A stretch of 38,594 bases of DNA. Origin: Pseudomonas eutrophicaquae. Its GTDB lineage: Bacteria > Pseudomonadota > Gammaproteobacteria > Pseudomonadales > Pseudomonadaceae. Position 1 is the stretch's first letter. Every line of letters begins with the position of its first letter. Under the pieces are notes generated by a model, which saw only the letters and a program-made list of their open reading frames with translations, ran no database searches and was not told the DNA's origin. Made by a program: the position numbers and the translations under genes. The stretch covers positions 1 to 38,594 of the forward strand of contig NZ_JAMJEZ010000021.1 in assembly GCF_023544715.1 (NCBI RefSeq), written 5' to 3'. Shown piece after piece: positions 11,528 through 38,524 of the stretch.

Positions 11528-11538
11528 CTCACGTTCAA

Positions 11539-11546
11539 AACAACAA
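11539..11546 (+). promoter_or_regulatory. AANAANAA (Crc/Hfq-type) motif before the thiolase gene
   Basis: AACAACAA lies just 5' of the AAGGA ribosome-binding site of the thiolase gene. Hfq with Crc represses translation in Pseudomonas by binding AANAANAA motifs at this position. The assignment is by motif only. Confidence 0.5.
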
Positions 11547-11557
11547 GGAATCTCTCC

Positions 11558-12748: not shown

Positions 12749-12840
12749 TCCACCCGCGACCTCGGCGCAGACTCGGCTGAGGTAGCGCGGTCCGTAGCTA
12801 CACCCGGGCGAGAGGCCATCTTCAGCCTCCCGCCTGCGGC

Positions 12841-21059: not shown

Positions 21060-22160
21060 TCACTTCAGGCGCGCCACCTGCTCGGCAATCACCACGTGGA
21101 AGATGGTTCGCAGGCAGCGCAGTTCGCCAGCAAAGGTGGCCGCCAGCTCCGGGCGCTGGGCGAGCAGCTCGGCATTCCCCCGCTCGACCTGCGCATAGAG
21201 CGCCTGCGCCTCGCCAGCGATCTTGTCCTTCAGCCTGTCCAGCAGGCGCGCGACCGTGGCCGGCTTGATGCGCATGGCCTCCCCCGCCTCCATCAGGCAG
21301 CGGCGGTCGATCTCGGCGATCCGTGCACGACCCTCCAGCGGCCAGGCCATCGCCGTCGCTGCGGGCCAACGGGTTTGGCCGAACGCCGGCGTGTCGTACA
21401 CGGCGGTGCAGATCAGGTCGTAGAACGGCGCCAGCTGGATCCCGGTCGAAGACACCAGGAAGCTGAGGTTCTTCAGGTGTGCGTCGGTGTTGCCCACCAG
21501 CACGTTGAATACCAGCCACTGGAACAGCACCGTGCGCGCCACCGCTGTGCTACGGCAGACGGCGGCCAGTTAATCCAGCCGGCCTACGCTACCTTCAAGG
21601 TACTTGTAGGGATGCGGATGGTCGGGCTTGAGAATATGCGTCGAAGGCGTCCGCCCGGACGGCTCGAATAGCTCGCCGTCCTGTAGCACCACCGCCAGCT
21701 TGTGCTGCGCGCCAGCCAACGACATGCGCTTGAGCGCGCCTTCGACCAGCGGGACGCTGGGCATGGCGGCGATGCGCGCGCTCAGATCGACATCGCTCAG
21801 TGGCCGCAGACCACCCTCGGTCTGCTCGGCTCCCGGCGGCAGCAGGGTCAGCGAGCCGGCGGATTCCGCTCCGTAGTGGCCGAGCAGGCCGAAGGCATCA
21901 GCGCCATCGACCCTCGCGGCACTGGCCAGCAGCACCCGCTGGCCCTCCTCAGGCAGCAGGTTGTCGAAGTACCACTGCACCGGCCGCAGCGTGCTGCCGT
22001 CCTGCTGTTCCCCAGCCCGCAGGGGCAGGTCGGGACACAGGGCGAAGCGGCCAGGCGCCTCCAGCCAGACCGGTGCATAGCGGAACGACCAGATGCCGTC
22101 GCGGTCGCTCAGGGTGCCGATCTGCTGGCAGTCGATCCAGGCCAGCAGCGTGCGTTCCAT
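21060..22160 (-). pseudogene. hipA: Broken HipA-family kinase toxin (internal deletion plus in-frame stop)
   Basis: HipA is a Ser/Thr kinase toxin that phosphorylates aminoacyl-tRNA synthetases. The N-terminal part (196 codons) has the glycine-rich loop MSLAGAQHKLAVVL and the ATP-contacting lysine in HILKP. An in-frame TAA follows at 21570-21572, then the same frame continues to LFQWLVFNVLVGNTDAHLKN with the catalytic NxDAH motif and the YDL metal-site segment. From HILKP to DAH there are about 45 residues; HipA proteins usually have about 125, so roughly 80 residues are gone. A GTG at 21542 could start a C-terminal fragment. The start overlaps the hipB stop by one base. A functional kinase is unlikely. 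Confidence 0.85.
21590..21602. repeat. 13-base near-palindrome, copy 2
   Basis: A TACCTTCAAGGTA copy inside the hipA N-terminal part, just before the in-frame stop and the inferred deletion joint. The flanks of the two copies do not match beyond the 13 bases. Confidence 0.5.
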
Positions 22161-22462
22161 CAGCGACCTCCTTCCGGCCCGGCCTTCTTCGCGCGCTGCC
22201 TGCGGGCATGCAGCTGCTGCGCGGCAGCCAGCTGGTCGGCCGCTGCGTCGGGGACATCAAGGACAACCCGCACGCCCAACCCTTCCAGTACTTGAAACAG
22301 TTTGCCCCAGTGCACACTTGCGTCGCCGCTCTCGACCTTGCCCATGAACGACTCACTGACGCCAATGCTGCCGGCGGCATCGTCCTGGCGGATGGACTGG
22401 GCCTTGCGGCTGGCCCGCACGATGGGGCCGAGGGCGTCGGCTGAATCGAGCTCGATGTACAT
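22160..22462 (-). CDS. hipB: HipB-like antitoxin, XRE-family DNA-binding repressor
   Basis: 100-aa protein with a helix-turn-helix at about residues 22-62 (RKAQSIRQDDAAGSIGVSES, then FMGKVESG), typical of XRE/HipB antitoxins that bind both toxin and operator. It overlaps hipA by one base. Its C-terminus is helical and basic. Upstream lie three evenly spaced copies of ATCC-N12-GGAT, resembling the TATCC-N8-GGATA HipB operators of E. coli but with a longer spacer. The gene looks intact even though its toxin is broken. Confidence 0.88.
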   Translation of the reverse strand: MYIELDSADALGPIVRASRKAQSIRQDDAAGSIGVSESFMGKVESGDASVHWGKLFQVLEGLGVRVVLDVPDAAADQLAAAQQLHARRQRAKKAGPEGGR

Positions 22463-22705: not shown

Positions 22706-23767
22706 TCAGATCGCCTTGAACAGCGGGCTGCGCACTTGCTGCGCATCCGCGGCCGAGATGAACTTCTCGGTGTAGATATCCCGCTCGAACAGGCGACCCT
22801 GCATCAGAGTGCTGATGCAGGATTCGATCATCAGCGGCGGGCCGCACAGATAGGCCTTGTGGCCACGGAAGTCACCGGCGAAGTGCGCCTTGGCCGCCTC
22901 GTGGACAAAACCGCGGAATCCCTGCCACTCACTGCCTTCATCCTCATGGGACAAGGCCGGTACATAGGTGAAGTTGGGATACTGCGCGGCCAGGGCCAGG
23001 AACTCGTCGTGGTAATACAGCTCGCTGCGGTTGCGCTGGCCGTAGACCAGGGTGATCGGCTTGTCGAAGCCCTCGGCCAACAGGCCAAGAATCATCGAGC
23101 GCGGGCTGGACAGCCCGGACCCACCGGCCATGAACACCACCGGCACATCCGCTGACTTCTTCACGAAGAAGCGCCCGTAAGGACCGCTGATGCTCAGGCG
23201 ATCGCCGACCTTGAGCTGCTCATGTACATAGGTAGTACCGCGCCCACCAGGGACGATGCGGATGTTCAGCTCGATCTCGCCCGCCTCGCTCGGCGCGCTG
23301 GCAATCGAGAAGGCGCGACTGCCGATGTCGTCTGGCAGGTCAAGGTTGATGTACTGCCCCGCCTGGAAGCGCAGGCCCTCGGGCGCGTCCAGCTTGAGCC
23401 AGAGGCCTTTGATGGTCGGGGTCAGATCCTCGATGCGGCTGACGGTACCCGGGTAGTCACGCACGGGCAGGTTTTCGGCATCCGGATCTTCCTCGATCTC
23501 CGCCTCGATGGTCACATCGCTCTGCACGGTGGCACAGCAGGCCAAGCATTTCTGCTCCTCGCGCTCAAAATCCATCAGCGCGAAACTCGAGGCCTCACCG
23601 TGGTCGATCTCGCCATCGGTGACCTGCACCTTGCAGGTGGCGCACAAGCCGTGGCAGCAGGCGTGCGGCAGGTAGATACCGGCGCGCAGCGCGGCGTCGA
23701 GGATGGTCTGGCCTTCCTCGATCTCGATGGTCTGGCCCAGCGGCTCGATGGTCAGTTCGTAACTCAT
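22706..23767 (-). CDS. lapP: Phenol hydroxylase reductase component (LapP/DmpP)
   Basis: Passes electrons from NADH through FAD and a [2Fe-2S] centre to the diiron oxygenase. The N-terminal ferredoxin domain has HACCHGLCATCKVQ and CLACC ligands; the FAD domain has SRAFSIASAPSE; the NADH domain has VFMAGGSGLSSPRSMILG and ends near FKAI. 353 aa equals DmpP. The start MSYELTIEPLGQTIEIEEGQ at 23767 is chosen over a longer open frame. It follows lapO by 14 bp and is followed directly by a terminator. Confidence 0.96.
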   Translation of the reverse strand: MSYELTIEPLGQTIEIEEGQTILDAALRAGIYLPHACCHGLCATCKVQVTDGEIDHGEASSFALMDFEREEQKCLACCATVQSDVTIEAEIEEDPDAENLPVRDYPGTVSRIEDLTPTIKGLWLKLDAPEGLRFQAGQYINLDLPDDIGSRAFSIASAPSEAGEIELNIRIVPGGRGTTYVHEQLKVGDRLSISGPYGRFFVKKSADVPVVFMAGGSGLSSPRSMILGLLAEGFDKPITLVYGQRNRSELYYHDEFLALAAQYPNFTYVPALSHEDEGSEWQGFRGFVHEAAKAHFAGDFRGHKAYLCGPPLMIESCISTLMQGRLFERDIYTEKFISAADAQQVRSPLFKAI

Positions 23768-23781
23768 GGCGCGCCCTCCCC

Positions 23782-24138
23782 TCAGTTCACCGGCACCAGG
23801 CTGTTCAGGCCCGGAGTGCGCATGCGCAGGTGCTCCTTGTGGCCGATGCCGTTCTCGGCAAGGCTCGCAGCAAAATCCGGCACCCACGGCTGACCTTCCT
23901 TGATCCACTCGACCTTGCTCCAGTCCAGCGCGGCGCTGTCCGGATCAGAGGCCAGCAGCGGCATCAGCTGCTGCTCGATCAGATCACCAAAGCGGGTCTC
24001 TGGCGGCTGGCAGAACATGATGGGCGCCGCCACCAGCAGATGGTGGTCCCAGACGATGAACAGCAATTGCTTGCCGTCGAAGTTCTCCAGGCGATCACGG
24101 GGAATGCCGACATATTCTTTGCGGGCAGCTACGGTCAT
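23782..24138 (-). CDS. lapO: Phenol hydroxylase gamma subunit (LapO/DmpO)
   Basis: Small oxygenase subunit of the (alpha-beta-gamma)2 hydroxylase. The start MTVAARKEYVGIPRDRLENF and the segments FIVWDHHLLVAAPIMFC and LMPLLASDPDSAALDWSKVE match DmpO. 118 aa is normal. I chose the ATG at 24138 with AAGGA upstream. A CA-rich AANAANAA block immediately precedes the ribosome-binding site. It lies 130 bp after lapN, the widest gap inside the hydroxylase genes. Confidence 0.93.
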   Translation of the reverse strand: MTVAARKEYVGIPRDRLENFDGKQLLFIVWDHHLLVAAPIMFCQPPETRFGDLIEQQLMPLLASDPDSAALDWSKVEWIKEGQPWVPDFAASLAENGIGHKEHLRMRTPGLNSLVPVN

Positions 24139-24268: not shown

Positions 24269-25789
24269 TTACTGGTTGGAGATGGACTGGTTACGCCACT
24301 GCTCGAAGTTCGCGCGATCGCGCGAGTCGGCATAGTCGCCGTTGTCCTTGCCATCGCGCAGGGATACCCAGTCCATCCAGCCGGCCAGATCGCCCTTGAG
24401 CGGGGCCTGCATCAAGCCGGGCATCGGCAGCCAGGCCTGGATGTACTTCTCCGGCTCGTTGTCGAAGATGTCCTTGCAGCCGTCGGAGCAGAAGTGATAG
24501 CGCTCGCCCTTGTAGACCGACTCGCGGTGGCACAGGGTGGTCGGATCGTCCGGCTCGGTGAACAGGGTCGGCAACTGGCAGCACTGGCAGAGCTGCGGCA
24601 GGCCGAAGTTGTTGAACGGCTTGCCCTCGGCCACCTGCTGCTTGATGTGCTGCCAGCGCGGGCGGTAGTACTTGTCGAAGGTATCCGGGTACTTCTTCGA
24701 CAGCCAAGCCATGTCCTCCTCGGAGGGGATCCAGGCATGGAAGGAGGTGCCGAATTTCCACTGATACAGTGCCAGCATGAACTGGTGGGACATGTGGTCG
24801 ATGGCCTTCTCCGCATCATCCCAGCCCTTGGGCGGACGGATGCCGTAGCGGGCCAGATCCTTGAACAGCGCGTTGCCGTTCTCGATGCCGTAGATGTTCC
24901 AGGCCTCGCGCCAGGACATCACACGCTTGGGCAGCATGTAATCCATCATGGTGCTGACCAGGCTCAGCACGCGGATGCCGCGCCAGAACCACTTGTCCAG
25001 CCAGGCCTGCACGATCGGCAGGTTGTCCGGGTCCTGCTCGAGCATGAACTTGATGCACTCAAGGCCCAGGGTCATGTGCCGCGCCTCGTCGGACTGCGCC
25101 GAGAAGCCGAAGGTCACGGTGGCCATGTCGCCGTTGTAGGCCGCACCGGACATGAACGGCACGAACAGCAGATTGGTCAGCACGTACTCGAAGCTGAAGC
25201 CAATGGCCATGATGAACTCGAACGGGCCACCGGACATGGCGTCGTCAAAGAACGAGCGGGCCACCGAGGTGTACCAGATACGGTCACGCTGATCGGCGAA
25301 GGCATGGAAGCCGTCGTAGAACTTGTTGTAGTTGGACAGCGCGTGGATCTGCGTCTGGGCGTGGCGAATCTCATCGATCGCCTGCATCTGGCAGGCCACC
25401 TGGGTGCCAACCCCCGGGAACTCACGGCCAATCCGGGCAAAGCCCTTGTGGGAGGCAAACTCGGCCGGGCTGATTGCCTGCAGGAACACCTTCAGCGCCG
25501 ACAGGTAACGGGCATCGGTGATGTGCAGATGGCCGTTGTTCTGCGCATGGGCGTCGATGATCGCGTAGAACTTGCGCTCCTTCTCGGCCTGGTACTTCCA
25601 ATAGGCATCCATGGTCAGGCGGAAGGGGTCTTCCCACTTGTCCCAGTCGTGGATCTTGATGCCTTCGTACTTGACGTAGGGGAACAGCTCATCGGTGCTG
25701 CGGTAGGTCGGTTCCCAGCCCAGATCCCGGGTGAACAGCTTGTACTTGTCTTTGAGGCTGAGTTTCTTGGCGGCGGTTTTCATGTCCAT
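24269..25789 (-). CDS. lapN: Phenol hydroxylase alpha subunit, diiron oxygenase (LapN/DmpN)
   Basis: Catalytic subunit that hydroxylates phenols to catechols. The diiron ExxH motifs are in QAIDEIRHAQTQ and SDEARHMTLG. Further landmarks are EGIKIHDWDKWEDPFRLTMD near the N-terminus, FGFSAQSDE and the C-terminal YHFCSDGCKDIFDNEPEKYI, a YHS-like segment typical of phenol hydroxylases. 506 aa is as expected. GAGGA precedes the ATG at 25789. Substrate-range residues cannot be judged by eye. Confidence 0.97.
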   Translation of the reverse strand: MDMKTAAKKLSLKDKYKLFTRDLGWEPTYRSTDELFPYVKYEGIKIHDWDKWEDPFRLTMDAYWKYQAEKERKFYAIIDAHAQNNGHLHITDARYLSALKVFLQAISPAEFASHKGFARIGREFPGVGTQVACQMQAIDEIRHAQTQIHALSNYNKFYDGFHAFADQRDRIWYTSVARSFFDDAMSGGPFEFIMAIGFSFEYVLTNLLFVPFMSGAAYNGDMATVTFGFSAQSDEARHMTLGLECIKFMLEQDPDNLPIVQAWLDKWFWRGIRVLSLVSTMMDYMLPKRVMSWREAWNIYGIENGNALFKDLARYGIRPPKGWDDAEKAIDHMSHQFMLALYQWKFGTSFHAWIPSEEDMAWLSKKYPDTFDKYYRPRWQHIKQQVAEGKPFNNFGLPQLCQCCQLPTLFTEPDDPTTLCHRESVYKGERYHFCSDGCKDIFDNEPEKYIQAWLPMPGLMQAPLKGDLAGWMDWVSLRDGKDNGDYADSRDRANFEQWRNQSISNQ

Positions 25790-26082: not shown

Positions 26083-27075
26083 TCAGAGTGCGATACCGGT
26101 TTTTTCGATGCGCACCTTGAAGGCGGCCACTTGTTCGCCGAGCAGCTCATCGGCTTCGGCACCAAAGGCCTGACCGATCACCGGCAGCAGGGCTGCGGCG
26201 GCGCGGTCGGTCCAGGCATTGATCCAGGTCTGTAGCTGGGCGCGGTTGTGCTCGGATTCAGCCGCAGCGACCTTGAGCACGGCATCAACCCACTTCTTGC
26301 TCTCATCGAACCAGTCGGTCATGAACTGGGTGAGCATGGCGACCGCACTGGCACCACGACCGGCCAGGTAGTCATCGACGATGCGCTCGTAGATCAGCGG
26401 ATAGAGCAGGCCATCGAGGGCGACGTTCTGGGCGATGAATAGCTCAAAGGGATCACGCACCGCCATGCTGTCTTCCACATAACGGCGCAGCGGCTGCCAA
26501 GCCTCAGCGCAGGTCCAGGCCTGCTTGGCGGTTTCCAGCGCTTCCGTGCCGCCCAGCAGCAGCCCCAGGCGCGACAGGTACTGGGCAATCCCCAGGTTAT
26601 CCATCGCGTGGTACATGCAGGGCTGGGTGAAGGTCACGCCATAGCCGTAGCCACAGATGAAGGTGTTGTTCTGGTTGGCGCCCCACGCCACATGGCGCAG
26701 CGGGATCAGCAGATCCAGCGCGATCTGGCGCAGCTCGCTGGGCAGCAGGTCGGTCAGACCGCGGTCCTCCACGAAGCTGAAGTTGGCCTCCATGCTGTCC
26801 TGCTGGCGGGCACGGGCCAGGGTGTAGGTGCTGTAGTAGAACTGGCGCGGGTCCTTGAGGGCGTACCAGTCCTGCATGACGATCTTGGTGATACTGGCGT
26901 CGTACAGCTCCTGATCCGGGTCCCAAGTCGGCCGGTAATGCAGGTTTTCGCTCGCCTGGATGTCGTAGCTGCCTTCCTGGTAACGGGAGGCCGGCTTGTC
27001 ACCAAAGCGGCGCGCCAGATGGTCGAAGGTCTGGCGCAGCGGCTGGATGCTTACCGTGCGAAGGTCGATTTGCAT
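26083..27075 (-). CDS. lapL: Phenol hydroxylase beta subunit (LapL/DmpL)
   Basis: Non-catalytic beta subunit of the hydroxylase, a four-helix-bundle protein related to the alpha subunit. 330 aa, beginning MQIDLRTVSIQPLRQTFDHL, with SRYQEGSYDIQASENLHYRP and DYLAGRGASAVAMLTQFMTD segments. An AGGAG site precedes the ATG. The 59-bp gap from lapK carries a CA-rich motif and a hairpin, an unusual amount of leader structure within an operon. Confidence 0.95.
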   Translation of the reverse strand: MQIDLRTVSIQPLRQTFDHLARRFGDKPASRYQEGSYDIQASENLHYRPTWDPDQELYDASITKIVMQDWYALKDPRQFYYSTYTLARARQQDSMEANFSFVEDRGLTDLLPSELRQIALDLLIPLRHVAWGANQNNTFICGYGYGVTFTQPCMYHAMDNLGIAQYLSRLGLLLGGTEALETAKQAWTCAEAWQPLRRYVEDSMAVRDPFELFIAQNVALDGLLYPLIYERIVDDYLAGRGASAVAMLTQFMTDWFDESKKWVDAVLKVAAAESEHNRAQLQTWINAWTDRAAAALLPVIGQAFGAEADELLGEQVAAFKVRIEKTGIAL

Positions 27076-27435: not shown

Positions 27436-28371
27436 TCAGGTCACGACGGTCAGGAAGGTGTCGTGCAGCTTGCGCTGTACGTAGTCCAGCCCACCGCCCT
27501 CGCCCAGCGCCTCGAAGGTCCAGGTCAGAGGCTCCTGATCCGGGTAGGACTGGCGGTCTTCCTTGAAGGTCTCAAAGCGGTTGCCCGAGGGGTCCCAGGC
27601 GTAGATGGTGCGCCCGCGGGTCACCCCGTGACGGGTCGGGCCGATGTCCACCGGGACCTTGTGCATGGACATGATGTCGCCGGCACGCAGCACGTCGTCC
27701 CAGCTCTCCATGGCAAACGAGCAGTGGTGCAGCTTGCCCGGCTCCGGGTATTCGGCGAAGGCGATGTCGTGGGACTTGATCGAGCAGCTCATGAACACGA
27801 TCAGGTTCGCGGTGCCTTCCGGGTTGAGCACCCGCTCGACCAGCGTAAAGCCCAGCACTTCGGTGAAGATCTTTGTCACTTCGGCGATGTTCGGCCCGTA
27901 CAGCAGCGCATGATCAAAGCGCAGCGGCGCCATGCCACGGATCGAGGCCGGGTCCCACGGAGTCGGATCGACCAGCCCGCAGCCATTGCCCACCGCGGTT
28001 TTCTTGGCATAGAGCTCGAACCAGTGACCGGACGGCACCTGAAAGCGCACACGCTCGCCGGTTTCCAGCATCTCACCGGAGGGAATCCGCGTAGTGGCAA
28101 TGCCGTAGGCATTCAGGTCCGCTTCCAGCTGGTCGAGCGTGGCCTCGTTGAGCACCTTGAAGCCGATGAAATCAAGGCCAGCCGCATCGGCTTCACGCAG
28201 CACGACGCTGTGGTGATCGACCTCCTCGCGGCACTTGAGGTAGACACGCCCCTCGGCATCGCGACCGGTTTCGATCAGCCCCATGATGTCCCGGTAGTGG
28301 TGGACAGCCTCTTCAAGATTCATCACGCGCAGCTGGGCATGGCCCGGCCGCAACACACCTGTCATCGCCAT
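27436..28371 (-). CDS. lapB: Catechol 2,3-dioxygenase (LapB)
   Basis: Extradiol dioxygenase cleaving catechols next to the hydroxyls. The type I fold has two vicinal-oxygen-chelate halves. Iron ligands are visible as His in FDHALLYGP, His in LHHCSFAMESW and Glu in NRFETFKE. 311 aa is close to XylE/DmpB (307). It lies upstream of lapK, directly behind the sigma54 promoter, instead of after the ferredoxin as in dmp; this is the lap order. GGAG precedes the ATG and a CAACAA run follows it closely. Confidence 0.95.
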   Translation of the reverse strand: MAMTGVLRPGHAQLRVMNLEEAVHHYRDIMGLIETGRDAEGRVYLKCREEVDHHSVVLREADAAGLDFIGFKVLNEATLDQLEADLNAYGIATTRIPSGEMLETGERVRFQVPSGHWFELYAKKTAVGNGCGLVDPTPWDPASIRGMAPLRFDHALLYGPNIAEVTKIFTEVLGFTLVERVLNPEGTANLIVFMSCSIKSHDIAFAEYPEPGKLHHCSFAMESWDDVLRAGDIMSMHKVPVDIGPTRHGVTRGRTIYAWDPSGNRFETFKEDRQSYPDQEPLTWTFEALGEGGGLDYVQRKLHDTFLTVVT

Positions 28372-28462: not shown

Positions 28463-28478
28463 TGCAGAGACAGTGCCA
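28463..28478 (-). promoter_or_regulatory. Sigma54 (-24/-12) promoter of the lap operon
   Basis: On the minus strand TGGCAC is followed by TGCA, with exactly 10 bases between the GG and GC dinucleotides, as sigma54 requires. The -12 element is CTGC rather than TTGC, a mild deviation. It lies 92 bp upstream of lapB and downstream of DmpR-type activator sites, as at the dmp Po promoter. Confidence 0.85.
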
Positions 28479-28498
28479 GGTTTGCTAACTACATGATT

Positions 28499-28829: not shown

Positions 28830-30524
28830 TCAGGTGATCTCGGGGCAATCCAGACTAGCCGCCTGGCCCTGCTTGAGCCGATAGGCCAGTTGCCGACGGC
28901 TCAGCCCCAGCAGGCGTGCGGCCTGGGTCAGGTTGCCACCGGCGCGGCGCACCGCCAGTTCCAGCAGACGATGCTCATGGGCCTGCAGGTCGAAATTCTC
29001 CTCCAGCAGGGTTTCATAGAGTGCCTCGCGGCGGGCCTCATCGGCATTACCGACCTGCCCGTTCTGATCGATCGCCACACCCGGGGCGCTCGCCGGGGCG
29101 CTGCCGGCAAACAGATGCTCCAGCTCGATCTGCCCACCCGAAGGCGCCAGCAGCACGGCGCGCTCGACCAGATTTTCCAGCTCGCGCACATTGCCCGGCC
29201 AGTCATAGCTCATCAGCGCCTGCAGGGCACGATCGGTCAGGCCCAACAGGGTCTTGTGATAGGCCGGCGCGTATTTCTCCAGCAGCGCATTGACCAAAAT
29301 CGGGATGTCCGGCTTGCGCTCGCGCAGCGGCGGGATCGCCACCGGATACGTGGCCAGCCGGTAATAGAGATCGGCGCGAAACCGCCCTTCGGCAATCGCC
29401 TTCTGCAAATCAACGTTGGTGGCCGCCACCAGCCGGACATTGACCTTGCGGGTCTTGTCATCGCCGAGGCGCTCCACCTCGCCGGTCTGCAGCACCCGCA
29501 GCAGCTTGACCTGCGCCGAGGGGGACAGATCGCCCAGCTCATCAAGGAATAAGGTGCCGCCATCGGCGCGCTCAAAGCGCCCCGGGCGCGACTGCTGGGC
29601 ACCGGTAAAGGCGCCCTTCTGCACACCGAACAGCTCGGATTCGATCAGATCATTGGGAATCGCCGCGCAGTTGACCGCGACAAAGGGCTGCTGGGCGCGC
29701 TCACTATTCTCGTGCAGCCACTGGGCAAACACCTCCTTGCCCACGCCAGTCTCCCCCAGCAGCAGCACGGTGATCGGGCTGCGCGCCGCCTTGCTCAAGA
29801 GATCAAAGGCGGTGCGAAACGCCGGTGAGCCGCCGACCAGCTTGCCGCTCGGCATCTGCTCGCGCTGCCGGCCACGCAGCTGCCACAGCTCCTGCGCCAG
29901 GGTCTGATAGGCGGTATCCGCCTCGGCCGGGCGACAGTATTCCAGATAGGCATCATCGCCCCAGGCCTCCACCGGCTTGCCGACCAGCACGCACTGATGA
30001 TCGCCCCGGCAAGTGCACTGGGTCTCACGGAACACGATGAAGCGGCGGAAGAAGCGGGTGACATATCCGGAGGCGTAACCGGCCAGCGTCCAGCAGGCGG
30101 TGTCCTCACCGATGCCGTAGTGCTGCAGGTGGGACTCGGCTTCCCAGGAGTTTTCACAGATCACCTCGCCGAAGAAGGTGCCCTGCTCCCAGTCGATCTT
30201 CGCCTCGGTGATGGTCGATTTGACCAGCCCCTCGAAGGCATGCAGCTCCGGGCCGATCTGGAACACATCGTAGTTGTCGCCCTCGCCGAGCAGCTTGGAG
30301 GCGCGCTCGGCGTCCTCCTGCCCGGCGGCAAACCCCATACGAAACAGCAGGCCGTGGGCGCGCTTGGCGCCCAGCGAGTCGATCAGTTCGCGGCGCAGGG
30401 CGCCGAGCGCCTTGGCGTGCAAGAGCAGCATGCGGCTCTCGTCGAGCCAGATCTGCCCATCGTCGATATTGAAGCGCAAGCGCGAGCGCAGGTTGAAGCG
30501 CTCCAGCGAGCGTTGTTCTGTCAT
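28830..30524 (-). CDS. lapR: Phenol-responsive sigma54 activator (LapR, DmpR/XylR family)
   Basis: Activator that binds phenols and drives the lap promoter with sigma54-RNA polymerase. The sensor domain (about 1-210, XylR_N plus V4R) has C144, E167, C170 and C178, the same spacing as the zinc ligands known in MopR/DmpR, and H95 in the spacing of the phenol-contacting histidine. The AAA+ domain has Walker A GETGVGKE and the sigma54-contact loop KGAFTGA. A Fis-type helix-turn-helix ends the protein (LTQAARLLGLSRRQLAYRLK). 564 aa matches DmpR. I chose the ATG at 30524. It lies on the same strand as lapB, unlike dmpR, which is divergent from its operon. Confidence 0.95.
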   Translation of the reverse strand: MTEQRSLERFNLRSRLRFNIDDGQIWLDESRMLLLHAKALGALRRELIDSLGAKRAHGLLFRMGFAAGQEDAERASKLLGEGDNYDVFQIGPELHAFEGLVKSTITEAKIDWEQGTFFGEVICENSWEAESHLQHYGIGEDTACWTLAGYASGYVTRFFRRFIVFRETQCTCRGDHQCVLVGKPVEAWGDDAYLEYCRPAEADTAYQTLAQELWQLRGRQREQMPSGKLVGGSPAFRTAFDLLSKAARSPITVLLLGETGVGKEVFAQWLHENSERAQQPFVAVNCAAIPNDLIESELFGVQKGAFTGAQQSRPGRFERADGGTLFLDELGDLSPSAQVKLLRVLQTGEVERLGDDKTRKVNVRLVAATNVDLQKAIAEGRFRADLYYRLATYPVAIPPLRERKPDIPILVNALLEKYAPAYHKTLLGLTDRALQALMSYDWPGNVRELENLVERAVLLAPSGGQIELEHLFAGSAPASAPGVAIDQNGQVGNADEARREALYETLLEENFDLQAHEHRLLELAVRRAGGNLTQAARLLGLSRRQLAYRLKQGQAASLDCPEIT

Positions 30525-30661
30525 GGTCGATCCCCTCTGGCCGGCTCGCGAACCTTCTGGGCAGACGGGTGGAGGGGCACGCCTGCACGCCGCAAGACGA
30601 TGACGCGCCCCCTTCTGCCCGGTTCTTGGCCGGCTTTGTCTTGTTGAAGCCCTCACAGAGT

Positions 30662-30714: not shown

Positions 30715-33114
30715 TCAGGCCGAAGCCACCTGCCGCGGACGCAGCAGGAAGTGCGCCAGCGCCGGCAGCAGGAACAGCGCACCCAGCATGTTCCAGACAA
30801 ACATGAAGGCCAGCAGGATGCCCATGTCCGCCTGGAACTTGATCGGCGACCAGGCCCAGGTCGCGACCGCCAGCCCCAGGGTGATGCCGGTCAGCACCAC
30901 CACCTTGCCGGTCGAGACCAGCGCCCGGTAGTAGGCCTCGGACAGCGACTTGCCCTCACGCAGGCGCACCAGCGTCACGCTGAGGATGTACAGCGCATAG
31001 TCCACGCCAATCCCGGCGCCCAGAGCGATCACCGGCAAGGTGGCGACCTTGACGCCGATGTTCAGCCAGACCATCAGCGCCTGGCAGAGCAGCGAGGTGA
31101 TCATCAGCGGCACCACCGCGCAGACCACCGCCTGCCAGGAGCGGAAGGTGATGAAGGCCAGAATGATCACCGCGGCATACACCAGAATCAGCATGTCGCG
31201 ATTGGCCTTCTCCACCACGATGTTGGTGGCCGCCTCGATGCCGGCGTTACCGGCGGCGTTGAGGAAGCGCAGGTCCGCGCTGCCGTACTGGGTATCGAAG
31301 CGCTCCACGGTCTGCACCACGCTGGCCAGGGTGTCGGCCTTGTGGTCCTTGAGGTAGGCGTAGATGGTCAGCAGGTCGCAGTTCTGGTTGAACATCTCGC
31401 GCGGGGCGCGGGTGATGATCGCGTTGAGCATGTCCTGCGAGCGTGGCATCTCGAACCACTTGAGGCTGCCCTCGTTCATCCCGGCGTTGGCCACCTTGGC
31501 CAGGCCCGCCAGCGAACTGGTGCCCTCCACGCCCGGCAGCTGCTGCAGCTCACGCTCCAGCGCATCCACCGCCCGCAGGGTGCTGTAGTGGGCACAGGCG
31601 TACTGCGGGGTCTTGACCATGACGATGAACACGTCACTGCTGGCGGCGTAGTTGGCGCCCATGAAGGCGTTGTCGAGGTTGTAGCGCGAGTCGGCGCGCA
31701 GCTCCGGCGCCCCCGGGTTGGTATCCCCGACGCGGATCTGCGAGCCCACGCTCAGCCCCAGCACAGTCAGCCCAGCGCCGACCAGCAGGCCGATACTCGC
31801 CCATTTGCGCTGGGTGAACTGATCGAGGAAGGCCCAGAACGGATGGCGCTGGTGGCCACTGTCAGCGGCCTCGAGCTTCTCGATACGCTGGCTGCGCTCG
31901 GCCGCCGCGGCGCTGACGCCCAGATACGACAGCAGGATCGGCAGGAGGATCAGGTTGGTGATGATCAGGGTCGCCACCCCAAGGCTTGCGGTGATCGCCA
32001 GATCCTGAATCACCGGAATGTCGATCACCATCAGCACCGCAAAGCCGATGGCATCGGTGATCAGAGCGACCATGCCGGTGATGAACAGCCGGCGGAAGGT
32101 AAAGCGCGCCGCGATCAGCTTGTGGGTACCACGGCCGATCGCCTGCATGATGCCGTTCATTTTCTGCGCGCCGTGGCTCATGCCGATGGCAAACACCACG
32201 AAGGGCACCAGGATCGAGTACGGATCCAGCTCATAGCCCAGGGTCGGCAGCAGGCCGAACAGCCAGACCACCGCGGTCAGCGAGCAGAACATCACCAGCA
32301 GGGTGCTGCGCAGGCAGCGGGTGTACCAGTAGAGCAGCACGGTGCAGATGACGATGGCCGCGGCGAAGAACACCAGCACCTGCTGCAGGCCCTCGATCAG
32401 ATCGCCGACCACCTTGGCAAAGCCGGTCACGTGGATGCTGATGGCGTCCGACTCGTACTTGGCGCGCAGCGCCTCGATGCGCTGGGACAGCGCGTGGTAG
32501 TCGATGCGCTCGCCGGTTTCGGCGATGCGCTCCTGCAGCGGCACCAGGATGATGCTGGATCGGTAATTCTCGGCCACCAGCTGGCCGATCTCGCCGGAGC
32601 GCTCGACGTTGATGCGCACCTGCTCGAGGCTCTCGGCCGAGCCGTCGTAGTCGTCGGGGATCACCGGGCCGCCGTCCAGGCCGTCCTCGGTGACGCCGGT
32701 CCAGCGCACCGCCGGCGCCCACAGCGACTTCATGTACGGACGGTCGACGCCGGGCAGCAGGAACAGCTCGTCGCTGAGCTTGCGCACGGTGTCGAGGTAC
32801 TCGGCGTCGAAGATGTCGCCATCGCGGGCGGCCACCGCGATGCGCAGGCTGTTGCCGCCCCCGGCCAGCTGCTTGCGGTTGTCGAAGAAGTTGACGATGT
32901 ACGGGTGGCTGGTGGGGATCATCTTGTCGAACGCCGCATTCAGCGACAGTCCGAGCGCCTGGTAGCCGAGCACCAGGGTGGTGACCAGACAGAGCAGCAG
33001 CACCGCGGGGCGGTTGTTGAACAGCAGCCGCTCAAGCAGCGAGCCGGAGCGGCGGTCGAACGACTGCACGTCACGGATCACCGCTTCGTGGCCAATGGAC
33101 TGGACGTGACTCAT
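30715..33114 (-). CDS. RND/MMPL-family membrane permease
   Basis: Large inner-membrane protein (799 aa) with about 12 membrane spans. It has a first span after residue about 40, a large periplasmic domain, a block of five spans (QVLVFFAAAIVICTVLLYWY and onward), a second periplasmic domain and a final block ending LAHFLLRPRQ. The pattern fits the MMPL/sterol-sensing-like RND group that moves lipids or hydrophobic compounds. The ATG at 33114 follows the upstream stop by one base (coupled). No matching membrane-fusion or TolC gene is nearby; its partners appear to be the YCF48, DUF1329 and DUF1302 proteins encoded upstream. Confidence 0.9.
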   Translation of the reverse strand: MSHVQSIGHEAVIRDVQSFDRRSGSLLERLLFNNRPAVLLLCLVTTLVLGYQALGLSLNAAFDKMIPTSHPYIVNFFDNRKQLAGGGNSLRIAVAARDGDIFDAEYLDTVRKLSDELFLLPGVDRPYMKSLWAPAVRWTGVTEDGLDGGPVIPDDYDGSAESLEQVRINVERSGEIGQLVAENYRSSIILVPLQERIAETGERIDYHALSQRIEALRAKYESDAISIHVTGFAKVVGDLIEGLQQVLVFFAAAIVICTVLLYWYTRCLRSTLLVMFCSLTAVVWLFGLLPTLGYELDPYSILVPFVVFAIGMSHGAQKMNGIMQAIGRGTHKLIAARFTFRRLFITGMVALITDAIGFAVLMVIDIPVIQDLAITASLGVATLIITNLILLPILLSYLGVSAAAAERSQRIEKLEAADSGHQRHPFWAFLDQFTQRKWASIGLLVGAGLTVLGLSVGSQIRVGDTNPGAPELRADSRYNLDNAFMGANYAASSDVFIVMVKTPQYACAHYSTLRAVDALERELQQLPGVEGTSSLAGLAKVANAGMNEGSLKWFEMPRSQDMLNAIITRAPREMFNQNCDLLTIYAYLKDHKADTLASVVQTVERFDTQYGSADLRFLNAAGNAGIEAATNIVVEKANRDMLILVYAAVIILAFITFRSWQAVVCAVVPLMITSLLCQALMVWLNIGVKVATLPVIALGAGIGVDYALYILSVTLVRLREGKSLSEAYYRALVSTGKVVVLTGITLGLAVATWAWSPIKFQADMGILLAFMFVWNMLGALFLLPALAHFLLRPRQVASA

Positions 33115-33115
33115 C

Positions 33116-34228
33116 TCATTTGACTCCCGCAACAATGGCATCCGGCTCGACGCGGGTCAGCCCGCGCGCGCTGGAAATGATCAGAGCCCCGTCTGACGCC
33201 TCGGTCAGGCCGGTCAGCCCGGTGCCCGCCTCAACCGCCAGCGCGCTGAAATGCTGGCCCTCGTCGGTGCTGCGCAGCAGGCGGCCACTCTCGTCCGCCA
33301 GCAGCAGCGAGCCATCGCGCATCCGGTAACCGGCGCTGAGGGTCACCGGCTGGCCGATCTCCACCTGCTGCCAGGTGGTCCCGCCGTCGGTGCTGCGCCA
33401 GACATTGCCGCGCAGGCCATAGGCCAGCAGCGCCTCGCCGCGCAGCGCCAGGGCGCCGAAGAAGGTGCCGATATAAGGGGTGTTGAGGACGCTGAAAGCC
33501 TGCTCCTCACCCTGGGCCCGGAACAGTGCCCCTTGCTCACCGGCGATCAGCAGCGCATCGCCGTCGATCTGCAGCTGATAGAGGTGTTTGCCGCGCGGAT
33601 TGGGAATCCGCCCGACCAGCGACTGCCAGCTCTGGCCACCATCGACGGTGTACAGGGCGATGCCGTAGGCACCGATCACATAACCGCGCAGCTCATCGCG
33701 AAAACGCACGGCCAGAAACGGCTTGTCCGGGCCATCAGTGACCAGGTATTCGGCACTGCGCAGCTCGGCTGCCGCGCCCGGCTCACCGGCCTCGCTGCGC
33801 CGCTTGGCATCATCACGAATGATCAGCGCCGCCTGGCTGCCATCGAGCTGGCGCTGCCAGGTTTCGCCGCCGTCACGGCTGTGCAGCACCACGCCGCTGT
33901 GACCGACGGCCCAGCCGTGGCTAGCGGAGATAAAGTGCACATCGGTCAGCGCCACGCTGACCGGAACGCTACTGGCCTGGCGCCAGCTGCGCCCGGCATC
34001 GTCGGAGAGCAGCACCGTTCCGCGCTCACCAACCGCCACCAGGCGGCTGCCGGCGCGGCTGACGGCCAGTTGCAGGCTGCTGAGGGCGCGCGCGCTTTCC
34101 AGCGCAGGACGATCCAGAGGATCCGGTACCGTGGCCGCCGTGCTGGCCAGTACCGTGCCGCTCAGACAAGCCAGGGAGAACATGGCGGCGGCCAAGGCCG
34201 GCCGGCGCAATGAAATGGGCACATGCAT
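33116..34228 (-). CDS. YCF48/BNR-repeat beta-propeller protein, exported
   Basis: 370 aa with an N-terminal signal peptide (RRPALAAAMFSLACLSGTVL, cleavage near ALAS/STA region) and repeated SxDxGxxW BNR/Asp-box motifs: SDDAGRSWRQ, SRDGGETWQR, TVDGGQSWQS, STDGGTTWQQ, STDEGQHFSA. These build a beta-propeller like the photosystem II assembly factor YCF48. In this gene set it is probably periplasmic and may scaffold the permease, with which it is translationally coupled. No enzymatic function is implied. Confidence 0.85.
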   Translation of the reverse strand: MHVPISLRRPALAAAMFSLACLSGTVLASTAATVPDPLDRPALESARALSSLQLAVSRAGSRLVAVGERGTVLLSDDAGRSWRQASSVPVSVALTDVHFISASHGWAVGHSGVVLHSRDGGETWQRQLDGSQAALIIRDDAKRRSEAGEPGAAAELRSAEYLVTDGPDKPFLAVRFRDELRGYVIGAYGIALYTVDGGQSWQSLVGRIPNPRGKHLYQLQIDGDALLIAGEQGALFRAQGEEQAFSVLNTPYIGTFFGALALRGEALLAYGLRGNVWRSTDGGTTWQQVEIGQPVTLSAGYRMRDGSLLLADESGRLLRSTDEGQHFSALAVEAGTGLTGLTEASDGALIISSARGLTRVEPDAIVAGVK

Positions 34229-34361
34229 GGTACGTACTCGAATCGGTCCCCCTCCGCCGCTGCGCCGCTACCGGCTCGCCAGCGGGGAGGGAAAGTCGTG
34301 AGAGGGAACTCCGGCACCGCGCCCGGGGCGACGGTGCCGGTATTGCCGCAGGGCGCGTGAC

Positions 34362-35717
34362 TCAGCGCACGCCCTCGGCGGCGACCGCATCGCCGGTCCA
34401 GTGGGTCTCAGGCTTGCGCGGCACGATCTTGAAGGTGGCCTCGTTGAGCGACTGGGTGGTGCTCATGGTGTTGGCCTGCAGGTTGAAGATGTGTGCGGGC
34501 TTGAGCGCCAGCATCGGGGTGGCCGGCAGCACGAACGGGGTGATCTGCGCGGTACGCCACAGCTTGCCTTCGCTGTCGAAGCCATCGATCAGCAGGACCA
34601 TCCAGGAGTCCTCGTCGAAGTAGTACTTGCGCTTAGGCACGGCATGGCGCTTGCCGCTGGCCACGGTAGCTTCCACTTCCCAGACGCGGTGCAGCTCCCA
34701 GCGCACCTTGGCGGGGTTGAGGTGGTGCTTGCCGTAGGCCTCGTCCAGCGACGCGGTGACCACTTCGTTGGCGTTGTAGGGCACGTACATTTCCTTCTTG
34801 CCGACCAGCTTCCAGTCGAAGCGGTCGATATGGCCCATCAGCCCCTGCACTTCGTCGAAGTAGTTGGCACCGGAGGCCACGAAGTCCGGCGTGTCGTAGG
34901 CCACGGTCGGAGCGCGGCGCACACGGCGCTGGCCGACCAGATACTGCCAGGCCTGACGCGACTGCTTGACGTCGATGCTGTCGCGGAACACCAGCGATTC
35001 ACCGGCCTTGAACGGCGGCGCGATGGTGGCAAAGCGCTGCAGCCAGTACTCGCCGCTCCAGCTGCTGGCGGTCCCGTCCTTGTAGTAGTACGGATACTGG
35101 TTGTACTGATCGTTTTCCGTCGCCAGGGTGCGCGAGCCATCGGCGGTCAGCACGATGTTCTTGAAGTTGGCCACCTCGGTGGACTCGTTCTCCACCCGCA
35201 GCAGGTGGTTCCAGGCCACCTCGACCCCGGTCTTGGGAATCGGGAACGGGATGCCGCCGTAGCAGCCGGTCAGCGACAGGCCGTTGTCCTTGGTCTGGCA
35301 CTCGGTGGCGTTCTTCAGGGTGTTGTCATAGACATGCTGCGGCGCCACCGCGGTGCGGCGGGTCGGGTAGACATCGACCCGGAAGCTGTCCGGATACTTC
35401 CTCAGCAGTGCCTGGGTGCCCTCGGAGAGCTTGTCCAGATGCTGGGCCATGTTCTGCGCGGTGATCTGCAGGACCGGCTTGTCCGCGGCGAACGGCTTGG
35501 ACGGAATGTCGCCGACCTTGGCGGCCGAGCCGTCCACCTCCTGCTTGCCGGTCCAGGCCGGAATCGTGCCATCCGCATTGCCAGCCATCTCCCCGCCCAG
35601 CGGGTTGAGGGTCTTGCCCAGTGCGGCGGCCTCTTCGGCGCTGACTGCGGCCTGTACGCCTTGCGTGCCCATCAGTGCGGCAGCCAGTGCTGCCCACAAA
35701 GCCGTTTTCTTATGCAT
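34362..35717 (-). CDS. DUF1329-family exported protein (LolA/LolB-like fold predicted)
   Basis: 451 aa with a signal peptide (MHKKTALWAALAAALMGTQG, cleavage probably after VQA). The mature protein starts VSAEEAAALGKTLNPLGGEM, with GNADGTIPAWTG and RRAPTVAYDTPDFVASGANY typical of DUF1329. It is expected in the periplasm or at the inner face of the outer membrane. The ATG at 35717 is chosen over one three codons upstream because GAGG is then correctly spaced. It lies 32 bp after the DUF1302 gene; these two families occur as a pair in many hydrophobic-compound degraders. Molecular role unknown. Confidence 0.9.
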   Translation of the reverse strand: MHKKTALWAALAAALMGTQGVQAAVSAEEAAALGKTLNPLGGEMAGNADGTIPAWTGKQEVDGSAAKVGDIPSKPFAADKPVLQITAQNMAQHLDKLSEGTQALLRKYPDSFRVDVYPTRRTAVAPQHVYDNTLKNATECQTKDNGLSLTGCYGGIPFPIPKTGVEVAWNHLLRVENESTEVANFKNIVLTADGSRTLATENDQYNQYPYYYKDGTASSWSGEYWLQRFATIAPPFKAGESLVFRDSIDVKQSRQAWQYLVGQRRVRRAPTVAYDTPDFVASGANYFDEVQGLMGHIDRFDWKLVGKKEMYVPYNANEVVTASLDEAYGKHHLNPAKVRWELHRVWEVEATVASGKRHAVPKRKYYFDEDSWMVLLIDGFDSEGKLWRTAQITPFVLPATPMLALKPAHIFNLQANTMSTTQSLNEATFKIVPRKPETHWTGDAVAAEGVR

Positions 35718-35749
35718 TGTTATCATCCTCGACCCAGGGATATTCGGAC

Positions 35750-37411
35750 TTAGAAGGTGCGCTGTACGGAGAACGAGACAAAGTCACGGTCGCCGTGGAA
35801 GTTGTCATAGGAAAGCTCGGGCACCGCGGTGTCGTACTTGATGATCGAGCCACTGGTGCCGTAGTAGTGGGTAAAGCCGAGGCTGGCCTGCCAGGTTTTC
35901 TGATACTCCGCCTTGAGGCCGATGCTGATGTTGCCGCCGTTCTCCGCCGGGAACAGCGCGCCGTTGACCGAGGAGCGGCCGAACAGCCCGTAGCTCACGC
36001 CGATCGGCACCTGCAGATCGAGCCCCGGGGCCACCTGGAAGTATTCCGGGGTGAAGATGAACTGCAGCGCACCGGCATCGCGGGTCGCCAGCGGGTCCAG
36101 CTGGGCCTTGTTGTCGGTGATGCTCAGGCGGCGGTTGTAGGCAAATTCGCCGATGAATGATGCGCCATCCCACAGCGGGTTGGCTTCCAGTACGCTGATT
36201 GCCGAGAGGTTGAGGTGCATCGTGCGGCCTTTCGGGAAGGCAGCATCATCGCCACCATCGATCACGCCGTAGCCACCAGGGGCGATCACCGTGTTGCCGC
36301 TGGCCACCAACGGCATGTTGTCGCGGAACGACAGCTCGCCAGCGACGTTGGTCTCACCCACCAGGGTGCTGAAGCTGAAGCCGATGGTGCGGATGTCCTC
36401 GGCGTAGACCATCTCGTAGCGGCCGACACCCGGGTAGACGTAGAACTGCGGCATCTTGTCGTGGAACTGCGCCGCGTAGATGCCGTACTCGGTATCGCCG
36501 GACTTGAACTTGAGCTGTACGCCGCCCTGCCCCGAATCACGTGCCTCGATGTCCTCGGCACGGTTCACCGAGAAGCCGGGGCCGAGGATCAGCGTCTCGC
36601 CGCCCTCATCCACAAAGTCGGCAAAACTGAAGTAGCTGCCAGCCGCCGGCAGACGGCTCTTGCGCCATTCCAGCTGGTAATAAGCCCCTACCGAGACGTT
36701 CGAGTTGAGCTGCAATTGGGCGGACACCTGGCCAACCGGGCGCAGGATTTCCTTGAACTGCGAGTTGGGCACCGACAGGGCCTTGACCAGATCCAGCGAG
36801 GTCTGCGCTGCCGCGATGCCGTTGGAGCCAAAGAACAGGCTCTCGCCGTACAGCTGGGTGAAGCGGCCGGCCTTAAGGTTGAGGTTCATGTCGCCGGGGG
36901 CAAAGGTGCCGTAGACGAAGGCATCCAGAAGCTCCGCCTTGCGCCCGTGCAGCTTTTCGGTGTCCTTGGTGAACTCGTCGAAATCGGCGCTGCGCGAGTT
37001 TACCAGCGCACCGCCCAGCGCACCGGGGTTGTCGTTGGACTGGTTGTAGACATCGTCATACCAGGCGGCGGCGCTCAGGCGCAGGCCGTATTTGCGCTGG
37101 TAACGCAGATCCAGCTCGGAGAGCAGGTCCAGGCGGTTGGAGATCAGGCCGCGATCAAAGTTGAGGTCACCGTCGTTGGTGTTGGCCTGCGGGCCGATCG
37201 AGTTGTCGGCGACGCGGGAATCGGCATCGCGCAGTCGCCAGGCGGCGCTGTACTTGATGGTGTTGTCCCACGACAGGCGCAGGTCCGGGTTGCCGGTATT
37301 GATCTGGAAGGCCAGCGCAGGGGTTGCGGCCGAAAGGCCGGCCAGAGCGCCGGCAACGGCGAAGCACAGCTTCTTCAGGGGAAATCCTGGCCGACGGGTG
37401 CTGTTGCCCAT
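35750..37411 (-). CDS. DUF1302-family outer-membrane protein
   Basis: 553 aa with a signal peptide (LKKLCFAVAGALAGLSAATP, cleavage near ALA-FQ) and a beta-rich body. It ends in RTF, the C-terminal aromatic signature of outer-membrane barrels. The segment FQINTGNPDLRLSWDNTIKY at the mature N-terminus is typical. It is likely a porin-like or FadL-analogous channel for hydrophobic substrates. The start at 37411 (MGNSTRRPGF) has GAGGATG upstream; a longer open frame through the leader is rejected. First gene of the envelope operon, controlled by the divergent LysR gene. Confidence 0.9.
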   Translation of the reverse strand: MGNSTRRPGFPLKKLCFAVAGALAGLSAATPALAFQINTGNPDLRLSWDNTIKYSAAWRLRDADSRVADNSIGPQANTNDGDLNFDRGLISNRLDLLSELDLRYQRKYGLRLSAAAWYDDVYNQSNDNPGALGGALVNSRSADFDEFTKDTEKLHGRKAELLDAFVYGTFAPGDMNLNLKAGRFTQLYGESLFFGSNGIAAAQTSLDLVKALSVPNSQFKEILRPVGQVSAQLQLNSNVSVGAYYQLEWRKSRLPAAGSYFSFADFVDEGGETLILGPGFSVNRAEDIEARDSGQGGVQLKFKSGDTEYGIYAAQFHDKMPQFYVYPGVGRYEMVYAEDIRTIGFSFSTLVGETNVAGELSFRDNMPLVASGNTVIAPGGYGVIDGGDDAAFPKGRTMHLNLSAISVLEANPLWDGASFIGEFAYNRRLSITDNKAQLDPLATRDAGALQFIFTPEYFQVAPGLDLQVPIGVSYGLFGRSSVNGALFPAENGGNISIGLKAEYQKTWQASLGFTHYYGTSGSIIKYDTAVPELSYDNFHGDRDFVSFSVQRTF

Positions 37412-37565: not shown

Positions 37566-37580
37566 ATACCTTTCGGGTAT
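37566..37580. promoter_or_regulatory. LysR-type operator ATAC-N7-GTAT
   Basis: ATACCTTTCGGGTAT is an exact ATAC-N7-GTAT palindrome, the recognition pattern described for BenM/CatM-type LysR regulators. It sits 29 bp before the lysR start codon in the divergent promoter region; a second ATAC half-site lies at 37544-37547, toward the DUF1302 gene, as expected for an activation site. Confidence 0.75.
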
Positions 37581-37609: not shown

Positions 37610-38524
37610 ATGGATCTTCGTCATCTTCGCTACTTCATTGCCGTGGCCGAGGAGCAGCACATCGGCCGGGCCGCCGCGCGCCTGCACATCTCCCAGCCGC
37701 CGCTGACCCGGCAGATCCAGCAGCTGGAGGAGGAACTGGGCGTGCAGCTGTTCAATCGCACGCCACGCGGCATGGAGCTGACCGGCGCGGGTGAGCAGTT
37801 GCTGGAGGAGGCGCGCAATATCCGTTTACTGGTCGAGCAGGCCACCGAGCGTACCCAGCGCGCCGGACAAGGCCGCTTGGGGCGGATGGATATCGGCATC
37901 TTCGGCTCGGCCATTCTGGACATCGTGCCCAAGGTGCTGGCGGCCTTTCGCGCGGCCTACCCGCAGGTGCGGCTGGTGCTGCACAGCATGGACAAGAATG
38001 AGCAGATCGAAGCCCTGCGCCAGCGGCGGATCAGCCTCGGCTTCAACCGTATCCTCACGCCGCTGCCGGACATCGCCTCAGAGCTGGTAACCACCGAATC
38101 CCTGCTGCTGGCCCTGCATGTGGAGCATCCGCTGGCGGCGCTGCCGGTGGTACCGTTCACCGCCCTGGCCGAACATCCGCTGGTGCTGTTCCCCACCGGC
38201 AGCCGGCCGAGCTTCATCGACCGGGTGATCGGGCTGTGCCAGCAAGAGGGCTTCGTGCCGCAGGTCGCGCAGGAGGTGGGCGATGCAGTGTCGGCGATTG
38301 CGCTGGTCGCGCACCGCTTCGGCGCCTGCCTGGTGAGTGAATCCAGCGCCGTGCTGCACATGCAGAATGTGGTGTATCGCCCGCTGAGCGGCCTGCCGGA
38401 TAACGCACGGATCGACCTGAGCTGCATCTTCCGCCACGATGATCGCTCACCGATGCTCGCCGCCTTCCTTGAGGTGGTGCGGCATTACCGCGACACCTCA
38501 CGGGAGCCGCGCGGGCCTTATTAA
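37610..38524 (+). CDS. LysR-family regulator (CatM/BenM-like subgroup)
   Basis: 304 aa. The N-terminal winged helix-turn-helix MDLRHLRYFIAVAEEQHIGR, AAARLHISQPPLTRQIQQLE and FNRTPRGMELT is very close to the aromatic-catabolism subgroup of LysR regulators. The effector domain (about 90-300) contains GIFGSAILDIVPKVLAAFR and RISLGFNR segments seen in BenM/CatM/ClcR-like proteins. Divergent from the envelope operon with an ATAC-N7-GTAT operator between. It probably senses an aromatic acid or pathway intermediate and controls the DUF1302 operon. Confidence 0.92.
   Translation: MDLRHLRYFIAVAEEQHIGRAAARLHISQPPLTRQIQQLEEELGVQLFNRTPRGMELTGAGEQLLEEARNIRLLVEQATERTQRAGQGRLGRMDIGIFGSAILDIVPKVLAAFRAAYPQVRLVLHSMDKNEQIEALRQRRISLGFNRILTPLPDIASELVTTESLLLALHVEHPLAALPVVPFTALAEHPLVLFPTGSRPSFIDRVIGLCQQEGFVPQVAQEVGDAVSAIALVAHRFGACLVSESSAVLHMQNVVYRPLSGLPDNARIDLSCIFRHDDRSPMLAAFLEVVRHYRDTSREPRGPY

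Follow-up and report, generated by a model that had tools for sequence, protein, structure and literature searches.

A four-gene cassette in a 38,594-nucleotide stretch of DNA from Pseudomonas eutrophicaquae (contig NZ_JAMJEZ010000021.1, the whole stretch being referred to as the window) very probably encodes a trans-envelope transporter of the four-component AmeABCD type, with a role in the transport of hydrophobic aromatics. The genes encode, in order, a DUF1302 barrel, a DUF1329 protein, a YCF48/COG4447 propeller and an RND pump, the order that characterizes the Ame type, and form a single minus-strand array (37411-30715) upstream of a gene cluster for phenol hydroxylase and meta-cleavage. 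We base the assignment on a gene order kept across related loci and plasmid regions, a conserved operator, the constant company of YCF48 and pump, structural matches of the pump to MmpL- and NPC1-type proteins, and the phenotype of an ameABCD deletion. The first-pass annotation had placed such a set at 30715..37411, spanning outer membrane, periplasm and inner membrane. Pfam found all four families there on one strand, and the compartments agreed by family and model.

The pump gene probably starts at the ATG at 33114, one base past the YCF48 stop, and the remaining two intergenic gaps are 23 and 133 bp. Pfam ranges scanned for DUF1302 and MMPL started slightly 5′ of the genes. By eye, the N termini of DUF1302, DUF1329 and YCF48 resembled export signals; an N-terminal hydrophobic segment exceeded the hydropathy limit in DUF1302 and YCF48 and not in DUF1329. 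DUF1302 and DUF1329 each had one match in the 2.55-Mb host genome.

A scan of genome contigs with pump queries gave at least 590 loci, of which the best 80 were kept. All four genes occurred on the same strand and in the same order, with gaps below 1 kb, in 75 of the 80; the incomplete loci were four cut by a contig end (L009, L023, L044, L046) and one holding YCF48 and MMPL only (L054). Plasmid records matched in 35 cases, and in the four regions examined the order was identical (4/4). An eight-gene block (LysR, the four cassette genes, a XylR-type gene and two hydroxylase subunits) was present in the window and, within the fetched DNA, in 13 of the 80 loci. These sets come from Stutzerimonas, Pseudomonas, Azoarcus, Pseudothauera, Zavarzinia, Alteromonadaceae and one unplaced metagenome-assembled genome. 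In both Zavarzinia loci the XylR-type gene lay upstream of LysR. Two Aromatoleum loci (L006, L008) carried LysR, cassette and activator with no hydroxylase within the fetched DNA, and a third (L010) carried the cassette only. We infer horizontal transfer from the recurrence of the block in distant lineages and the presence of cassettes on plasmids.

Further cassettes neighboured FAD hydroxylases, glyoxalase-family dioxygenase-like genes, fumarylacetoacetate-hydrolase-family genes or a Rieske oxygenase, and recurring neighbour clusters included methyl-accepting chemotaxis proteins (14 and 5 loci) and a universal-stress protein (9 loci), each cluster being named from one representative. On plasmids, pobA and a chemotaxis gene lay near the P. 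putida cassette, VOC and fumarylacetoacetate-hydrolase-family genes near that of Cupriavidus, and hydroxyquinol dioxygenases near that of Massilia; the cassette of a P. aeruginosa river plasmid was flanked by transposase genes and had no evident aromatic gene beside it. The expectation that such sets recur near degradation genes was thus borne out for aromatic compounds, in related loci and on plasmids. A mirror-tree test of physical partnership, applied to the 14 sets (window plus 13 loci), gave correlations of 0.57-0.89 among the cassette proteins, yet their correlations with the pair of regulators and the pair of hydroxylase subunits were just as strong (0.59-0.92), and the test therefore shows only shared inheritance.

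Cassettes of this kind, some with mutant phenotypes, have been described before (PMC6394551, PMC6449761, PMC10866462, PMC3110197, PMC7012976, PMC4109377, PMC13101534, PMC3958437). AmeABCD of Castellaniella defragrans matches the window in its four families and their order and likewise adjoins catabolic genes; its RND pump (AmeD, CDM25262) has 12 transmembrane helices (TM) and two periplasmic loops (PMC6394551). It lies in a monoterpene island, whereas the window cassette lies by phenol genes, and the likeness is one of families and order. When ameABCD was deleted, cells grew less well on apolar monoterpenes and tolerated them less, but growth on acetate or perillyl alcohol was unaffected (PMC6394551). 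Operons of COG4447, COG1033, PF07044 and DUF1302 beside phenol genes were predicted as AphS/AphR/AphT targets in Betaproteobacteria (PMC6449761). Like the window cassette, they are assigned LysR-type (AphT) control, and that of Azoarcus BH72 includes a LapR gene, but they are betaproteobacterial whereas the window genome is of a Pseudomonas-like family. They were read as a possible toxicity or solvent-stress response, with no mechanism given in the available part of that paper (PMC6449761). The ‘Nanopod’ cluster of ORM2a, with a porin-like protein, DUF1329, YCF48 and MMPL, is expressed during benzene degradation, its direction being left open there; it differs in being from an anaerobic member of the Desulfobacterota and in carrying extra stress-protein genes (PMC13101534). 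DUF1302 and DUF1329 genes also occur in a Zoogloea phenol hydroxylase cluster (PMC7012976). The suggestion that the set is an undescribed system must be withdrawn in view of AmeABCD and its mutant, the AphS/AphR/AphT targets, the Delftia phnL mutant and the P. putida Tween 20 genes, the last two discussed below (PMC6394551, PMC6449761, PMC3958437, PMC10866462). The accompanying statement that its mechanism is uncharacterized stands: mechanism and direction are still unsettled, and published readings diverge between export or tolerance, transport of open direction, and vesicle formation. Observed in the present analysis were the operator statistics, the two-module layout, the YCF48-linked TM4 Ser-His and the porin-like DUF1302 model.

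The divergent promoter between LysR and DUF1302 in the window contains ATAC-N7-GTAT, which we take to be the form of the AphT/CatR/BenM-type LysR motif. The exact motif was found in 23 of 26 divergent LysR-DUF1302 regions (the window and 25 loci), against 0.12 expected from mononucleotide shuffles; the regions are not independent cases, since several are near-identical. It was lacking in L019, where the region is 56 bp, and in L039 and L040, with one mismatch each. The AphT motif has been described as similar to those of CatR and ClcR (PMC6449761).

Promoters of the sigma-54 type were also considered. The -24/-12 pattern matched once in the window, with 2 mismatches, which is below the chance number for that pattern. 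The site is nevertheless likely to be real because of its place and because comparable sites (≤2 mismatches) lie between activator and hydroxylase in 10 of 12 loci, against 2.44 expected (L022 and L026 being without). A looser single sigma-54 pattern had no match anywhere in the window. Sigma-54 control of the cassette itself was rejected: no -24/-12 site was found in the 400 bp upstream of DUF1302 in any of 12 loci (0.66 expected), and the window site belongs to the hydroxylase operon. With the LysR operator at the cassette and a sigma-54 site only at the hydroxylase, cassette and enzymes thus have separate promoters. Transcription of the cassette might read through into the gene of the activator.

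The pump model (predicted local distance difference test, pLDDT, 82.5; 47 sequences) shows 12 long helices, with large loops at about 59-236 and 463-627, as in the Ame type. Hydropathy also counted 12 segments, though not one-to-one with the model, TM4 being missed and helix 372-403 split. The best NCBIfam model was HAE3, the class expected of an Ame-type pump (TIGR00921, E 4.9e-48), at 163.7 bits below its cut-off of 351.9. Among the best 50 Foldseek rows MmpL5 and MmpL4 came first, followed by NPC1-type proteins (NPC1L1) and MmpL3, with HpnN at rank 49; the best matches are siderophore, sterol and lipid transporters. It is highly improbable that the cassette encodes a conventional tripartite efflux pump of the HAE1 type whose parts have diverged. 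No AcrB-type chain appeared in those 50 rows, while VIA-align ranked AcrB-type and SecDF chains level with the Foldseek matches. In agreement with the earlier claim that a classical membrane-fusion protein and TolC are missing, Pfam detected neither an HlyD-type adaptor nor TolC in the 30 window open reading frame (ORF) ranges scanned, other ORFs and the rest of the genome not having been searched. The component families and folds, including the porin-like DUF1302 model, likewise disfavour this type.

A Ser-His in TM4 and an Asp-Tyr in TM10 were present in all 81 pumps from the window and the 80 related loci, a biased set because loci were picked by similarity and one search peptide adjoins TM4. 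A wider set of 68 pumps was made up of 27 from DUF1329 regions, the second pump of L053 and 40 hand-picked across the score range of the matches listed. Every YCF48-linked pump (39/39) carried Ser-His and Asp-Tyr. In the 29 without a YCF48 neighbour, the TM4 column held Ser-His once (L236, inside the same clade), Gly-His in 5, Asp or Glu in 15 (among them L267, a distant multidrug-type pump) and other residues in 8, this column aligning less reliably in the most distant pumps. The Ser-His pumps formed one clade in a midpoint-rooted FastTree phylogeny, and many of the 39 are closely related. The Gly-His pumps were L241, L242, L251, L256 and L268. The TM10 Asp-Tyr aligned with Asp-Tyr in both halves of MmpL5 and, in HpnN, with Asp-Phe in the first half and no Asp in the second; uneven sites are thus not unique to the cassette pump family, since HpnN is also uneven. 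In the window pump the TM4 His is H314, counted from the ATG at 33114, and the TM10 Asp is D705. By analogy with MmpL-type pumps, the TM4 Ser-His and TM10 Asp-Tyr may relay protons. The AmeABCD paper does not deal with the TM4 signature, since neither histidine nor aspart- appears in its main text (PMC6394551).

The DUF1302 protein was modelled as a porin-like barrel (pLDDT 85.6, 48 sequences), whose best solved matches in the VIA list of 50 rows were OprD/Occ channels; maltoporin ranked level with these and AlgE below them. Sequence did not place it in the OprD/Occ family, PF06980 being the sole Pfam match at E up to 0.001. No FadL-type barrel appeared in the 50 rows of structure matches, which does not exclude that type. 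Profile searches of solved structures yielded nothing beyond weak, unconvincing matches, both for DUF1302 and for DUF1329, the latter having no convincing solved relative. A broad literature search returned nothing on DUF1329, which has been assigned to the LolA superfamily (PMC6394551).

The OprD/Occ channels matched include OpdK with vanillate and a BenF-like porin, and they point to uptake, a reading we consider a real possibility though short of probable, in which the DUF1302 barrel would admit hydrophobic substrates, DUF1329 would shuttle them and the YCF48-pump unit would deliver or release them at the inner membrane. The best matches of the pump also include NPC1-type proteins, which take up sterols. 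MmpL pumps, however, export, and phenol passes membranes unaided. Shared fold, as judged from the pump and barrel models, would not settle the direction of transport. The ameABCD mutant points both ways: it fails mainly with limonene as sole carbon source and grows like the wild type on acetate with limonene up to 5 mM, but higher limonene inhibits it even with acetate (PMC6394551). Against uptake, HpnN moves hopanoids outward (PMC6394551).

To examine how the four genes are combined, regions around full-length DUF1329 matches were taken from 200 Pseudomonadota genomes, weak partial matches and the window's own being left out. Merging left 86 DUF1329 copies from 21 genomes; one copy that had been fetched, L156, scored under the limit set for DUF1329. 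DUF1302 adjoined 69 copies, a pump was near 24, all three partners accompanied 18 and none accompanied 14. No pump was near the other 62 of the 86, as expected for interchangeable receptors and hence for uptake. YCF48 adjoined every pump in these regions (27/27). The cassette has a two-module architecture, consisting of a DUF1302-DUF1329 pair and a YCF48-pump unit. Two genomes (G058, G062) had at least 9 DUF1329 matches against 3 pump matches (9 and 5 candidates scored), a hint that pairs outnumber pumps in some genomes.

We take PP_2018 of P. putida to be of the YCF48 type, which the paper describing it does not state. On Tween 20, P. putida needs the DUF1302 and DUF1329 genes PP_0765/PP_0766, a phenotype common to the periplasmic protein and pump PP_2018/PP_2019, and AlphaFold co-folding predicted contacts that were strong for PP_2018-PP_2019 only (PMC10866462). 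This system differs from the window in its substrate and in having the two pairs at separate loci, judged by tag number. Two unlinked pairs sharing a phenotype fit the two-module picture. A tentative and rather unlikely extension is that interchangeable DUF1302-DUF1329 ‘receptor’ pairs, one per hydrophobe class, plug into fewer shared YCF48-pump units, in a modular form of trafficking or import; the ion coupling of these units would differ from that of other MMPL-type pumps because a fixed TM4 Ser-His would face TM10 Asp-Tyr. If true, this would be a modular, proton-driven hydrophobe pathway, similar in logic to TonB receptors sharing one energizer.

Other arrangements were observed. L165 (5205-16731) holds a DUF1302-DUF1329-DUF1329-DUF1302-DUF1329-YCF48-MMPL array, with several receptor-like genes and one pump. 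The variant order DUF1329-DUF1302-MMPL-YCF48 occurs in L184 (8134-14988), L191 (3153-9780) and L234 (5527-13103). In small genomes of family f26, weak PF07044 proteins lie directly beside MMPL pumps, as at G164:C26:3078-6069 (L247), where no YCF48 is nearby and the PF07044-like protein went undetected by the in-house DUF1329 profile.

The phn cluster of Delftia acidovorans Cs1-4 suggests envelope remodelling, in which the proteins would move lipid and outer-membrane vesicles would form as a way to cope with or reach hydrophobic compounds. DUF1302, DUF1329 and YCF48 (phnL) have consecutive tags there (DelCs14_1756-1758) in a phenanthrene cluster (PMC3110197, PMC3958437); PMC13101534 names a DUF1329 gene DelCs14_1722, a number absent from the available text of PMC3958437. 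In the phnL mutant most of the vesicle production was gone and growth on phenanthrene was poor (PMC3958437), and nanopods have been shown to contain DUF1302 and DUF1329 proteins (PMC3110197). Transporters of lipids or sterols account for several of the best matches of the pump. Vesicle loss may be indirect, however, and the DUF1302 model is a porin-like barrel; we regard this explanation as unlikely.

For the Ame-type transporter the following scheme may be proposed. The cassette would be expressed under the divergent LysR regulator, beside the phenol or alkylphenol catabolic cluster. The proton gradient would drive the pump via the TM4 Ser-His/TM10 Asp-Tyr site, with the YCF48 propeller as its periplasmic partner. 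DUF1329 would ferry the hydrophobic ligand across the periplasm or bridge pump and barrel, and the DUF1302 barrel would serve as outer-membrane gate. Transport outward would lower the toxic phenol load in membranes during growth on phenols, although for direction export and uptake are about evenly balanced.

Table 1. Features of the window discussed in the text.
Feature	Position	Strand	Basis or remark
DUF1302 outer-membrane barrel (AmeA-like)	35750..37411	-	PF06980 E 5.4e-130
DUF1329 periplasmic protein (AmeB-like)	34362..35726	-	PF07044 E 8.2e-127
YCF48/BNR propeller, probably exported (AmeC/PhnL-like)	33116..34228	-	PF14870 E 2.7e-22; PDB Ycf48 2xbg E 2e-19
MMPL/RND pump (AmeD-like), TM4 Ser-His + TM10 Asp-Tyr	30715..33114	-	PF03176 E 1.6e-19
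LysR-type operator ATAC-N7-GTAT (ATACCCGAAAGGTAT)	37566..37580	.	sequence; window copy reads 37580-37566
Divergent LysR-family regulator	37610..38524	+	PF00126, PF03466
XylR/DmpR/LapR-type sigma-54 activator	28830..30527	-	PF06505, PF02830, PF00158
Sigma-54 -24/-12 site (likely) ahead of catechol 2,3-dioxygenase gene	28463..28479	-	2 mismatches
Catechol 2,3-dioxygenase (lapB-like)	27436..28371	-	PF22247, PF00903
Phenol hydroxylase L subunit	26083..27075	-	PF02332; letter from gene order
Phenol hydroxylase N subunit	24269..25789	-	PF02332, PF04945; letter from gene order
Phenol hydroxylase reductase (P)	22706..23908	-	PF00111, PF00970, PF00175

On its 3′ side the cassette is followed by the XylR/DmpR/LapR-type activator, catechol 2,3-dioxygenase, phenol hydroxylase subunits and meta-cleavage genes. 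The order R-B-K-L-M-N-O-P-C-E-H-F-G presumably resembles that of lap, and the regulator's best NCBIfam model was MobR, with a score under its cut-off. The set had been called wired to an alkylphenol cluster. The conserved LysR operator does tie it to the regulator adjoining the cluster, but the ‘alkylphenol’ label came from the lap-like order and the sub-cut-off MobR match, and sequence does not tell phenol and alkylphenol apart as substrate. Beta-oxidation-type genes (hydroxyacyl-CoA dehydrogenase/enoyl-CoA hydratase, thiolase, acyl-CoA dehydrogenase) adjoin the meta-cleavage genes at 9419-14619 and possibly serve alkyl side chains. Between the hydroxylase reductase and semialdehyde dehydrogenase genes lies an ORF with a HipA N-terminal domain (21570-22462, minus strand), preceded by a helix-turn-helix ORF with a borderline Pfam score, an arrangement that suggests insertion of a HipAB-type pair into the lap operon. 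An IS605 OrfB/TnpB-like gene (5261-6565, plus strand) overlaps the start of a MalT/LuxR-type regulator ORF (6376-9252).

There is no settled picture of how Gram-negative bacteria that grow on oily, toxic substrates cope with them at the envelope, and many of the pathways concerned have a cassette of this kind nearby. A system that the literature has read in three ways can be approached directly through its operator, its two modules and the His in TM4.

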